Shown here one piece after another: positions 12,773-39,383 of a DNA stretch of 64,000 nt. Every line of letters begins with the position of its first letter. Positions within the stretch are counted from its first letter, which is position 1. The position numbers and the translations under genes were made by a program. Origin of the DNA: Paludisphaera borealis (GTDB lineage: Bacteria; Planctomycetota; Planctomycetia; Isosphaerales; Isosphaeraceae); NCBI RefSeq assembly GCF_001956985.1, contig NZ_CP019082.1, forward strand, positions 4,278,001 to 4,342,000, read 5' to 3'. Below the pieces are notes generated by a model. The model was not told where the DNA came from and made no database searches. It was given only the letters and a program-made list of their open reading frames with translations.

Positions 12773-15700
12773 TTAATTATGATCCGATGAGAGCGGATTG
12801 ATGAGTTGGTCGACCTCGTCGGAAGAGATCTTCCGGACGGTCCCTTCGAGCATCCGCCGGAAGTGGCGGACCTCCTCCACGGATGAGGGGAAGCCGATGT
12901 TGCCGACCGGGCCTCGGCTGTGGGCCAGGACGGCGCCGTCGGGTTCGGTGATCGCGAACCAGGGGATTCCGTCGCCGGTCTCGATCGGGAGCCCGGCGAG
13001 CGCCTCGGTTACGCGGTCGTCGACGCCTTCCATCAGCTTGACGACGACGTAGTCCTTGTCGAGCGTCGCGTGGTGGTCCTCGATCCAGCGGGCCAGTTGA
13101 AAGCACGGGCCGCACCGAGGGCCTCCCTGGATGACCCAGACGCGCCGGCCGCTCCGTTTCGCTTCGGCGCGGGCCTCGGCCAGCAGGGCCGGCGCGTTGC
13201 GCGGGGGCGGTCTGTGTTGCTTCAGGAAGTCCGCGCCGGCGCGGATCGCGGCGTCCACGTCCTTCACGGCGATCCGCTCGGCCGCGATCGTCTTCTGGTC
13301 GCCGTCGAGCGCCACGAGCACGATTTCGCCCGCCGCCGGCTTCGGCCAGCCGCGCTCGGCGATGGCCGCGGCCTCCTTCGCGAGCTGTGCCGGGTCGACG
13401 CGCAACGTCAGGTAGCTCAATACGGCCTTCGTGCGCTCGTCGTCGTAGTTGAACAACGCATCGGTCACTCGGCCCGCATCCCCGGAGTCGTCGCTCATCA
13501 GTGCCACCAGGGCGCGCATGCCGCACGGCCCGACCTTCCGGCAAAGGCTCTCGACGCTCTTCGACAGCGGAATGGCGGGGGGCGGGGGCGTTGTTGCGGG
13601 GCGCGGGTTCCTTGATGAGAATGACGACCGTTGCAGCTTCAATTGAGCATTCTCTCTGACCTCGCCGGGGTTGAACATGCGGTCGCGGTCAAAGATGTAG
13701 TCCTCCGGATCGCCGGGATCGTGCCGGTTGCTGAACTGGAGCGGCGCGTTGGAAGGCACGACCGTGAATCGAAACCGCCCCGCCTCGTCGGTCTGCTGGC
13801 TTGCGATCGGTTTGCCGTCCGATCCCTTGACGTACATTTGAAGAGTCTGGCCGGCCGCGGGCTGACCGTCGACGCCGAGCAGCGTCCCGCTGTACGTCGC
13901 CGTCGGCGTCATGGACACGTCGACGTTTGCGTCGCCCTTGACCCCCTCGGCAAAGCCGCCGCGGCCTCGATCGCGATCGAGGAAGAACAGCGTCGCCGAC
14001 TCGGCGTCGAACGCGATCTCAAACGTCCCGTCGGGGTGAGTCTTGAGCTCAAGGGCCTCGGGGATTCGATGCGGCTCCGGCGGGGGCGCCCAGGCGTGGG
14101 TTGCAAGCGTCGGAGAGGGCTTATAGGGCGAGCCGTCGAGCATCAGTCGGCCGGTGATGCGTCGCTCGCCGTTCCAAGGCCGGTGGAACGTGAATTCCAA
14201 CGGTTTCTCCGTGGTCACGTCGATGGGCCGCGTTTCCTCCCAACCCCCCGAGCTCAACCGCAGCTCGTGCTTCCCCCTCCCTGCGCCAGCCTGGGCCACG
14301 CCGTTGGCGTCGGTCTTCAGCCAGGCATGAACACCACCGTTTCCCGAATGTTTCCTGCCAGCGCCGTCCGTCCAGTTCACCTGCCCCTTGCTGGAGAGAT
14401 CCACCCAGGCGTTGCGGACTGGTTCGTGCTCTGCCCCGCGCGTCACCTGGACTGTCACGGGGGTCGCGGGGTAGACCTTCATCGTGATCTCCGCGGGCTT
14501 GGCCGATTCCTTGCTCAGGATCAAACCCGTCCAGCGGTCGCTGGCCCACTTGAGATCCATGATTCCCAGAACGAAGCCGTGTTCCGAAGGAACGCGCAGG
14601 CTGAACGTACCATCGCGGCGAGCGCGGGCGTACGGCCCGGCTCCGTTGCTCCCCGGGCCGAAGCCGGAGCCGATGACCAGAATTCCCTCGGCGTCGGCCC
14701 CTTCGGGCATGATCAGGCGGCCCTGCACGGTTTGCTCGCGTCGGGCGTGGATCGTGGTCAGGCCGTCCCTGGTTTGCTTCAAGTCGGTCTCGTCGACCTT
14801 CCAGTCGGAGCCGGGAAAGTCCACCTCGACGTATTGTAATTTCGGGCGGGGCGCCCAAGACACGACCGCCGTCCCGTCGGCATCGGTGCGCACATGAGAT
14901 GCTCTGATGTATCGGGCGACGATCCAATCCGAATCTTCCGGATGGAAGCTGACGGCCAGCTCCAGCCCGCCGACGGGCTTACCGTCGACGTCGATCACGC
15001 GAATCCTGTGGGGAGCGGGCGGGAGGAGTGACAGCTCGGTCTTGTCCTCACGCGGGCGGTCATCGAGATCGCGCTTGCCGCCCGCGCCCAGCGTGGGGTG
15101 CCAGGCCACCAGCTCGCGGAGCCGCTCTTCGGCGGGGAGCCGAAGCCGCGCCTTGCCGTCCTGGCCCGTGACGCCTTGAACCTGGAAGCTCGTCCCCGAG
15201 GCGACGACCTGCGCCCCGGCCACGGGTCTCCCTTCCGACACCACGACGACTTCATGGTCGAGCGCCGGGAGGAGCGTCAACTCCACGGGGGACGCAAGCA
15301 CGGCGCGGGCGGCGATCGATGGTATCTTCCGCACCATCTGATGGCGGCCGTCGGCCGAACTCGCATGCAGATCGCAGCCGTTGCCGAACACCCCCGGAAG
15401 TTGGAACCGACCGGCCTCGTCCGTGCGGGCGATGGGCGGTGCGTCGAGCTGAAAACTGAATGACTGCACGGTCGCCCCCGCCGCCGGGGAGCCGTCGGCC
15501 ATGCGGACGACGCCCGTGACGGTCAGGAGGCCGTCTTGAGAGTCATCGGCCTTCGTCGCCGCTTCGGTTGGCGCCTCGGCCGGGGGCGACTTCGCGGTCT
15601 GGTAAGCGTAGGCGCCGGTTGCGATCGCCCCGGCCGTCAGCAGGGCGGCCACGCCCGTCGTCAGCACCTTGTTCACGAACATGGTCCTCACCCCCTTCCT

Positions 15701-16462
15701 CACGAGTTGCATGACGGCGACGGGGACGGTCCCGATCGCCATCGCCCGCGCCCCGCTGATCGTCACGGCGAGCCGCACCGTGGAATCCGCAAGCGCGGCC
15801 GGCACCGCCGCTTCCGAGGCGAGCGACGACGCCAGAACCGCCGCCGACGGGGCCAGGCCGCGACGGGCCAGGCGTGCGCCCAACCGCTCCCGACCGCGCG
15901 CCAGCCGGCTTTGCACCGTGCCGACGGGCCAGCCCAGTCGCTCGGCCGCCTGATGCTGCGTCAGCCCTTCAAGGAAGCAGAGCACCAGGACGGTCCGAAA
16001 CCGCTCGGGGATGCGGTCGAGCTCTTCATGGATCACCGGGCCGAGGTCGTCGCGGGGGTCGTCGGTGAAGGCGAGCGGTCTTGCCTGGCCCGCGTTCCGT
16101 TCGTGCGACCGACGCCGCGCGGCGGACGTCCGGGCCGTCGCCGCGACGTTGTACGCCACGCTGTAGAGCCATGATGTCAGCGAATCCCGCCCCCGGATCG
16201 ACCCGGCCTTGATCGCCAGGATGAGGAACGTCGCCTGAAAGGCGTCCTCGGCTTCGTGGGCGTCGTGGAGCACGCTCCGGCAGACGCGCAGGACCATCGG
16301 GCCGTGCCGCTCGACCAGGGCGGCGAAAGCCAGATCGGCACCCTCGCCGTCGCGGGCGGTGAATCGCTCCAGGAGTCGTCCATCGGTCAGCCCGCCGACC
16401 GTCCCCGCGTTGAACAACACGCGGATCGATCGGAGAGCCTCCCCGCTCGGTTTGCCAGCCAC
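12773..16462 (-). CDS. ECF sigma factor fused to a membrane-anchored repeat tail and a thioredoxin-like domain
   Basis: A 1229-residue protein. Residues about 40-110 are sigma-70 region 2 (AFAALVERHGPMVLRVCRSV, DAHEAEDAFQATFLILA) and about 150-205 region 4 (RFRTVLVLCFLEGLTQHQAA, GWPVGTVQSRLARGRERL). A single membrane helix lies at about 265-288. Then come several carboxypeptidase-regulatory/Cna-B-like beta-sandwich modules (for example VTGVVRMADGSPAAGATVQS and VDGQPAAGQTLQ), a helical segment near 1000-1090, and a C-terminal thioredoxin-like domain with C1117-G-P-C1120 and a following GIPWFAI (cis-Pro). The GTG start has GGAGG 8 bases upstream. This corresponds to planctomycete ECF sigma factors with long C-terminal extensions (ECF01-Gob type). 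No separate anti-sigma gene is adjacent; the tail may do the sensing (inference). Confidence 0.9.
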   Translation of the reverse strand: MAGKPSGEALRSIRVLFNAGTVGGLTDGRLLERFTARDGEGADLAFAALVERHGPMVLRVCRSVLHDAHEAEDAFQATFLILAIKAGSIRGRDSLTSWLYSVAYNVAATARTSAARRRSHERNAGQARPLAFTDDPRDDLGPVIHEELDRIPERFRTVLVLCFLEGLTQHQAAERLGWPVGTVQSRLARGRERLGARLARRGLAPSAAVLASSLASEAAVPAALADSTVRLAVTISGARAMAIGTVPVAVMQLVRKGVRTMFVNKVLTTGVAALLTAGAIATGAYAYQTAKSPPAEAPTEAATKADDSQDGLLTVTGVVRMADGSPAAGATVQSFSFQLDAPPIARTDEAGRFQLPGVFGNGCDLHASSADGRHQMVRKIPSIAARAVLASPVELTLLPALDHEVVVVSEGRPVAGAQVVASGTSFQVQGVTGQDGKARLRLPAEERLRELVAWHPTLGAGGKRDLDDRPREDKTELSLLPPAPHRIRVIDVDGKPVGGLELAVSFHPEDSDWIVARYIRASHVRTDADGTAVVSWAPRPKLQYVEVDFPGSDWKVDETDLKQTRDGLTTIHARREQTVQGRLIMPEGADAEGILVIGSGFGPGSNGAGPYARARRDGTFSLRVPSEHGFVLGIMDLKWASDRWTGLILSKESAKPAEITMKVYPATPVTVQVTRGAEHEPVRNAWVDLSSKGQVNWTDGAGRKHSGNGGVHAWLKTDANGVAQAGAGRGKHELRLSSGGWEETRPIDVTTEKPLEFTFHRPWNGERRITGRLMLDGSPYKPSPTLATHAWAPPPEPHRIPEALELKTHPDGTFEIAFDAESATLFFLDRDRGRGGFAEGVKGDANVDVSMTPTATYSGTLLGVDGQPAAGQTLQMYVKGSDGKPIASQQTDEAGRFRFTVVPSNAPLQFSNRHDPGDPEDYIFDRDRMFNPGEVRENAQLKLQRSSFSSRNPRPATTPPPPAIPLSKSVESLCRKVGPCGMRALVALMSDDSGDAGRVTDALFNYDDERTKAVLSYLTLRVDPAQLAKEAAAIAERGWPKPAAGEIVLVALDGDQKTIAAERIAVKDVDAAIRAGADFLKQHRPPPRNAPALLAEARAEAKRSGRRVWVIQGGPRCGPCFQLARWIEDHHATLDKDYVVVKLMEGVDDRVTEALAGLPIETGDGIPWFAITEPDGAVLAHSRGPVGNIGFPSSVEEVRHFRRMLEGTVRKISSDEVDQLINPLSSDHN

Positions 16463-16612
16463 GGGCCTTGCCTCCGCATGCCGATTGATCTCAATGTCCA
16501 GGTAGACTAACGGGCCCGGTCGACTATTCCGACTTTCTCCCGAAATCGCCGAATGCTAATGGCGGTTTGGTCGAGAAGCCCACGGCTGGGGGCGAGCCTG
16601 AGCGAGGGGTGT

Positions 16613-16691
16613 TACAAGCCCGAAGCGCAAGCGAGTGCATCCCTCTATGGCCCATCGGATGGGATGCACTCGCTTGCGCTTCGGGCTTGTA
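16613..16691. repeat. Palindromic repeat, family A (31-bp perfect arms)
   Basis: A perfect inverted repeat: 31-bp arms at 16613-16643 and 16661-16691 around a 17-base loop. The arm begins TACAAGCCCGAAGCGCAAGC. It sits in the divergent spacer between the sigma fusion and dnaA. The rest of this 569-base spacer (16463-17031) has no gene. Related copies are at 41820-41897, 56101-56178, 56224-56301 and 63646-63729. Confidence 0.95.
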
Positions 16692-16899
16692 GCGGCCGGC
16701 CTGTGTGTAAGTTCTCGGCTTGAGTCATTCTGGGAAATCCGTAGGTCGTTGTACGTCTAATCGCTTTCTCCGCGCGGCTTTGCGCAAAGCGCCGCCGGCT
16801 CGCCGGACGATTTTGCTTGCTCGTTACAGCTTCTGGCGGCGCAATCCGCATAGCTCTCCCTATGGTTCGTTCCTTCGCCAATTTGCCCCGTCTATGTCT

Positions 16900-16928
16900 T
16901 TGACAGGGTCCCATGCAGGGCGCATATC
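16900..16928 (+). promoter_or_regulatory. Candidate dnaA promoter
   Basis: A perfect -35 TTGACA at 16900-16905 is followed after 17 bases by CATATC at 16923-16928, which matches TATAAT at three positions. It lies about 100 bases upstream of the dnaA start. Planctomycete promoter consensus is poorly known, so this is only a sequence-based candidate. I found no clear DnaA boxes in the spacer. Confidence 0.3.
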
Positions 16929-17031
16929 TTCCTGGCTGATCGACGGAGCGTGTCGGCGGCCGAGGGATTGGGCTTCGGTCCGGAAGTCGGGTCGAGGTTG
17001 TCGGGAACGTCTTGCGGCAGGGGTGAGATCG

Positions 17032-18615
<1,584 letters not shown>

Positions 18616-38810: not shown

Positions 38811-39383
38811 ATGTCGGCGTCGGTGACATCGTCCCACCCTCTGGAGAGAGGCTTTGCCTTGGATCGTTCCGACGCGGAGCTTGTGACGGCGGCTTGTCAG
38901 GGCGACCTGTCGAGCTTCGGCCGGTTGTACGAGCGGCATTATCGGATGGCGGTGGGGATCGCCCGCGGCCGGTTGGCGGATCGCCACCTGGCGGAAGACG
39001 CGGCACAGGAGGCGTTCGCGATCGCCTGCCGCACACTGCGCACCTTGCGCGACCGCGACCGGTTCCCCGAGTGGCTGGGGACGATCTGTCGCCGGACGGC
39101 CTCGCGGCTGGACGCCGACCGGCCGGCGCACGAGCCGTTGCCCGAAGACCGCGAGCGCGCCGGCGATTCCGAGCGCCGGGCGCTCCGCGACCAGGTCCAG
39201 GACGCCCTCGGCCTCCTGGACGAGAACTCGCGCGAGATCGTCGTGCTCCATTACTTCAGCGGGCTGTCGTACGACGAGATCTCCCGGGCGCTCGGCCTGT
39301 CGGTCGCGAGCATCCACGGCCGCCTGCAACGAGCTCGCGGCAAGCTGGCCAAGGCCCTCGACTCATCAGGAGCCAAGACATGA
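38811..39383 (+). CDS. RNA polymerase ECF sigma factor
   Basis: A 190-residue sigma-70 family factor. Region 2 is at about 30-95 (FGRLYERHYRMAVGIARGRL, HLAEDAAQEAFAIACRTLRT, FPEWLGTICRRTAS) and region 4 at about 125-180 (LDENSREIVVLHYFSGLSYD, EISRALGLSVASIHGRLQRA). It has no C-terminal extension, unlike the fusion at 12.8-16.5 kb. ATG 38811 has GGGGGC upstream; the frame is open to 38748. Its stop overlaps the start of the next gene (ATGA), so the partner is translated with it and is probably the regulator of this sigma factor. Confidence 0.95.
   Translation: MSASVTSSHPLERGFALDRSDAELVTAACQGDLSSFGRLYERHYRMAVGIARGRLADRHLAEDAAQEAFAIACRTLRTLRDRDRFPEWLGTICRRTASRLDADRPAHEPLPEDRERAGDSERRALRDQVQDALGLLDENSREIVVLHYFSGLSYDEISRALGLSVASIHGRLQRARGKLAKALDSSGAKT

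Follow-up and report, generated by a model that had tools for sequence, protein, structure and literature searches.

Does a long-tailed sigma factor gene of Paludisphaera borealis encode one protein or two? The open reading frame 12773-16462 (-) lies in the window, by which we mean the whole analysed stretch of 64,000 nucleotides from P. borealis PX4, and runs through 1229 codons without an internal stop. The P. borealis PX4 genome comprises 7.498 Mb and, in addition, two plasmids of 111.8 and 42.5 kb (PMC5352709). The sequence-only reading took the product to be simply one polypeptide; that view is not supported, because a conserved ribosome-binding site and ATG between the sigma part and the membrane helix suggest a separately translated tail. 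This second start at the sigma/helix junction is the stronger finding of the analysis. Membrane-tethered ECF sigma factors are already known as a kind, and the P. borealis protein is a variant of them.

By its domain content, the protein is an ECF sigma factor. Pfam matched both sigma regions 2 and 4 (residues 49-116 and 144-194), as had been read from the letters beforehand, and gave no match to region 3, in keeping with ECF (group 4) membership; the sigma part also matches the folds of SigW, sigma E and CnrH in structure comparison. Carboxypeptidase-regulatory-like repeats had been read correctly as well (CarboxypepD_reg, E 3e-17, best stretch 314-374), and all four domain matches, including that of Thioredoxin_7 at 1094-1173 (E 5e-8), exceeded the curated Pfam cut-offs. 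The complete set of cysteines in the ORF is 61, 162, 363, 974, 980, 1117 and 1120. A frameshift or an assembly join of two genes was ruled out by an intact orthologue (L030).

Table 1. Positions of the features of the sigma-tail ORF in the window
Feature	Coordinates	Strand	Basis or remark
Whole ORF	12773..16462	(-)	1229 aa, GTG start: ECF sigma, linker, helix, beta-sandwich repeats, two thioredoxin folds
Shine-Dalgarno GGAGG of the first start (GTG 16462)	16471..16475	(-)	sequence; duplex -9.5
Sigma-70 region 2, residues 49-116	16115..16318	(-)	Pfam Sigma70_r2 E 4e-12; fold match
Sigma-70 region 4, residues 144-194	15881..16033	(-)	Pfam Sigma70_r4_2 E 1e-12; fold match
Linker, residues 203-260, predicted helical	15683..15856	(-)	L224, T228, A232, L253 kept across different-tailed paralogues
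Internal Shine-Dalgarno-like AGGAAGGGGG	15691..15700	(-)	conservation, duplex energy
Conserved internal ATG, codon 261	15680..15682	(-)	predicted start of 969-aa tail-only product
Hydrophobic helix 265-288, end A-Y-A↓YQ	15599..15670	(-)	predicted membrane anchor, or short product's signal peptide
CarboxypepD_reg-like beta-sandwich repeats, residues 306-955	13598..15547	(-)	Pfam
First thioredoxin-like fold, residues 964-1084, without CxxC	13211..13573	(-)	Z about 10.7, 2.6 A over 109 residues
Second thioredoxin-like fold, active-site type, residues 1088-1211	12830..13201	(-)	Pfam, predicted structure, fold match
C1117-G-P-C1120	13103..13114	(-)	both cysteines invariant in 44 homologues

Just before the helix, the window reads AGGAAGGGGG TGAGGACC ATG, the ATG being the codon of Met261. 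When the ATG was allowed to shift by three codons, an in-frame Shine-Dalgarno (SD) sequence followed by ATG was found at residues 258-265 in 52/58 members of the family, as against at most about 11% (mean 2%) at other positions; six of the 58 members are without it. Met occupies column 261 in 44/58 members, and the mean SD duplex energy is -7.3 versus -3.3 at other internal ATGs. The duplex energy at the internal site resembles that of genuine starts in the window and in the genus, and the spacing from SD to ATG is commonly 11 nt, which is on the long side. Under a tighter definition, 47 members had both elements, 4 had neither, 1 had the SD only and 6 had the ATG only, the two being associated (Fisher p 0.002). 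In six members (L042, L043, L054, L057, L058, L083) the ATG lies one codon upstream with the SD kept. The arrangement reaches beyond the family, as 13 of 20 relatives from other planctomycete families have an SD and ATG ahead of the helix, several of them with AAGGAG.

Codon choice points to the nucleotides themselves. The conserved Gly256 is encoded by GGA in 33/37 cases versus 13% elsewhere, in genes with 84% GC3 (Fisher p 2e-24), and the preference holds in 29 of 33 representatives less than 60% identical, while GGA makes up 5-19% at 17 other conserved Gly columns. At codon 255, GAA is favoured (16/18 versus 30%). The two codons that follow vary freely at their third positions, so what is constrained is A-AGGAG, which is complementary to the 16S end. 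The anti-SD is carried by the 16S ends and was found three times in the genome, the shorter search pattern giving these three matches and the longer pattern none. Taken together, this conservation pattern indicates that the internal SD and ATG is under selection at synonymous sites. A literature search for internal starts in ECF genes found nothing relevant among the papers listed.

The linker between sigma part and helix appears to be structured. In a model of residues 1-310 (61 members; pLDDT 86.9, pTM 0.81), helices were placed at 206-213, 222-237 and 248-290, and four linker positions (Table 1) are conserved among members despite unrelated tails. The single membrane helix read earlier at 265-288 agrees with a hydrophobic stretch at 266-287 and with the last predicted helix. 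Pfam matched no anti-sigma family in the linker and no zinc-finger anti-sigma domain between sigma part and helix, and residues 163-362 contain no cysteine. The modelled sigma domains are 6-8 A from anti-sigma-bound structures versus 27-29 A from RNAP-bound structures, which is suggestive of the anti-sigma-bound shape, although an isolated sigma factor may model compact anyway. The helix lies C-terminal to the sigma part, and from the signal-peptide-like starts of sigma-less homologues we infer that the tail is outside. Haem attachment at CxxCH motifs is extracytoplasmic, and the CxxCH motifs found in one tail of the family therefore support an outside location. The helix ends in signal peptidase I-like motifs, A-Y-A↓YQ in the window and L030 and A-H-A↓YQ in the sigma-less L031. 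A family-wide motif of this type was rejected, because AxA stands at the helix end in only 26/60, and it is claimed for the window's clade only.

We propose, with a probability of roughly 0.6 and on the basis of the sequence, that the gene makes a membrane-tethered sigma-tail fusion as well as a free secreted tail, that the tail is most likely an outside thiol-disulfide protein, and that the tethered fraction couples the state or the export of the tail to the sigma factor. Translation from GTG 16462 would produce a membrane-tethered ECF sigma factor whose sigma part and structured linker lie in the cytoplasm and whose single helix leads to an outside tail made of beta-sandwich repeats and a PDI-like thioredoxin pair. 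Translation from the codon 261 ATG with its own SD would produce the tail alone (969 aa), in which the helix would serve as an anchor or a signal peptide, just as in relatives that lack the sigma part. The sigma factor would have to leave the membrane to act; tethering would be its inhibition and proteolysis its release. That a tethered sigma factor is inactive until released is suggested by analogy with IutY (PMC8999054) and SCO4117 (PMC5826349). More tentatively, a large planctomycete sigma-factor family may encode two proteins per gene, with sigma activity set by how much of the tail is tethered relative to free, or by successful tail export, and each sigma factor monitoring its own exported partner.

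The C-terminus of the tail has a recognizable fold. In an AlphaFold model (pLDDT 94.8), residues 956-1229 form two thioredoxin folds, and the second superimposes best on the solved structure 3fk8 (Z 12.0, 3.2 A, 125 residues); this structure comparison, together with the exact motif and the Pfam match, agrees with the thioredoxin-like domain with C1117-G-P-C1120 of the sequence-only reading. By sequence and predicted structure, the last domain is thus a thioredoxin-fold protein. The top Foldseek matches of the pair were QSOX and PDI fragments, and as modelled the C-terminus is a PDI-like pair with CxxC confined to the second fold. The pair resembles the tandem folds of PDI and QSOX in that an inactive fold is followed by an active CxxC fold; it differs in being bacterial, in ending a long repeat protein, in sharing 10-20% identity and in that its activity is predicted. 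Invariant throughout 44 homologues are the two cysteines of the active site, a proline and, in a GNIGFP-like motif, the N and the first G; the closing G-x-x-P part of that motif is less strictly kept.

The whole tail also occurs without a sigma factor, in proteins of roughly 900-1050 residues with signal-peptide-like N-termini from the same genus and other families. Stand-alone CarboxypepD_reg plus thioredoxin proteins of planctomycetes (L172, L149-L164) match it over its whole length at about 20-40% identity and have a signal-peptide-like start, but lack the sigma domain. One of these loci (L158:1124-5344) encodes a 1407-aa protein in which this CarboxypepD_reg plus thioredoxin tail is joined instead to a BlaR1-type M56 peptidase; it is a further membrane signalling module with this tail. 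As the tail is conserved without sigma, its active site has a function of its own, and the tail is most likely an outside thiol-disulfide protein in its own right.

These observations bear on the idea of a one-protein thiol or oxidative-envelope sensor, in which C1117 and C1120 would change state outside, a protease would cut the tether and the sigma factor would reach its promoters. The architecture and the conserved CGPC with its invariant proline are consistent with this, the fused sigma factor IutY is activated by Prc and RseP cleavage (PMC8999054), and two more paralogues of the same genome carry CxxC thioredoxin-fold tails, namely L074 (DsbH/Thioredoxin_7, CGWC) and L080 (AhpC/TSA, CGPC). 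However, conservation of the tail without sigma argues that the active site is kept for another job, most paralogue tails have no recognized redox domain, and a sensor of this kind leaves the internal start unexplained. We consider it unlikely as the full account: redox sensing by the tail is possible, but redox sensing with proteolytic release of sigma is no more likely than a secreted thioredoxin function of the tail on its own.

The long tail is not special to this sigma factor: the P. borealis genome contains about 35 sigma-linker-helix paralogues with unrelated, diverse tails of exported type, including DUF1559, trypsin-like, HlyD, polysaccharide export with SLBB, CarboxypepD_reg, and a di-haem oxidoreductase with two CxxCH motifs. 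The sigma halves of L074 and L080 fall outside the window's clade in the tree, so that sigma modules probably acquired thioredoxin-fold tails three or more times. L080 (1496-3934) has several extra hydrophobic segments before its TlpA/AhpC-TSA domain (WCGPC) and no internal SD and ATG. In L082 (1073-3484), whose tail is the di-haem oxidoreductase with its two CxxCH motifs, the sigma factor is thereby joined to a putative c-type haem peroxidase. Elsewhere (L088, L165, L168, also L142 and L147), a sigma-helix paralogue is divergent to a secreted tandem CGWC thioredoxin of about 330 aa. Besides P. borealis, at least two and probably four further genomes of the genus have this pair, which is a natural two-gene counterpart of the fusion in the window. 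The window itself has another sigma-70 ECF-like match at 38901-39371 (+), in an open frame of 338 aa that is 32% identical to the sigma part.

Searching 45 genomes of the family turned up three further ones with the window's tail. One of them, L030 (Planctomycetales bacterium 71-10), has the same domain order in one open frame and is 55-57% identical. L029 (Singulisphaera sp. GP187) has the same order with an in-frame TGA right after region 4 (GCC TGA CTG), which could be a sequencing error, and in L031 (a MAG) the sigma part is absent, homology beginning just upstream of the ATG that precedes the helix. The tail frame remains open in both. In the tail tree, the branching order is (L172 sigma-less, (L029, (L031 sigma-less, (window, L030)))), all starred, and the window's sigma half groups with those of L030 and L029 in a single clade (100/90) of matching inner order. 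The simplest history is a single sigma fusion in Isosphaeraceae followed by one loss and one interruption; independent sigma gains were ruled out by the single clade and its matching order. When 16-17 kb around the three orthologues was searched for conserved neighbours as possible targets, only the ORF itself matched the window's flanks. A truncated copy elsewhere (L091:1981-2379; chromosome 144061-144333), 66% identical to residues 2-92 of the window protein, is apparently a dead relative.

The loss in L031, the interruption in L029 and the wide occurrence of the tail without sigma would also fit a chance fusion without signal flow, in which a secreted redox protein carries a sigma factor along for the ride that is now being shed. 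We find this improbable, because the sigma halves are 65-66% identical to that of the window, above the 53-59% of the tails, and because the tethered layout, with its conserved linker, is retained in about 35 paralogues, which argues that the layout itself is selected. An SD-like programmed translational pause before the helix, aiding sigma folding or recruitment of the targeting machinery with the full-length protein as the only product, would suit a site lying directly ahead of the helix in nearly all members, but is very unlikely. A pause does not require an ATG, yet this one is conserved, is associated with the SD and, where it has moved, is still accompanied by it; and the sigma-less L031 retains an SD-like stretch and the same ATG.

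The proposed two-product gene can be compared with known tethered sigma factors. IutY of Pseudomonas putida (ECF243) is a sigma factor fused to its own membrane anti-sigma (PMC8999054); like the P. borealis protein, it combines sigma, membrane segment and outside C-terminus in one polypeptide, with no separate anti-sigma gene. Unlike IutY, the P. borealis protein has a linker without a Pfam anti-sigma match, a beta-sandwich and thioredoxin tail, and an internal start. SCO4117 of Streptomyces coelicolor (ECF52) likewise has a sigma part, a membrane segment and a long outside tail, in its case with a ligand-type domain, and its S. clavuligerus orthologue has a stop codon that splits off the outside module (PMC5826349). 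ECF52 proteins have a zinc finger between sigma and helix, whereas the P. borealis protein has no cysteine between 162 and 363; without this marker, we do not file it under ECF52, and by analogy it may work like tethered ECFs of the IutY/ECF52 type. Long-tailed planctomycete ECFs, for example of the WD40 type, share the phylum, the large expansion and the long tails, and some were found in detergent fractions of Tuwongella (PMC8567305), in passages that make no mention of an internal start. The P. borealis subfamily differs from the WD40 type in its conserved linker, single helix and exported-type tails.

Long-tailed sigma factors number in the dozens per planctomycete genome, and the reviews consulted describe no experimentally worked-out example from this phylum. 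If the second start is true, annotations miss one protein per gene in the sigma-helix family. A conserved second start would explain why the tails look like complete exported proteins, and it suggests that such sensor fusions may have originated when a sigma module was set in frame before an existing signal peptide. A perfect 31-nt inverted repeat with a 17-nt loop (16613-16691) lies in the window between the sigma ORF and the DnaA-like ORF (16720-18615) that diverges from it; the 24-nt core of the repeat is present 16 times in the chromosome, in two cases as a closely spaced inverted pair.
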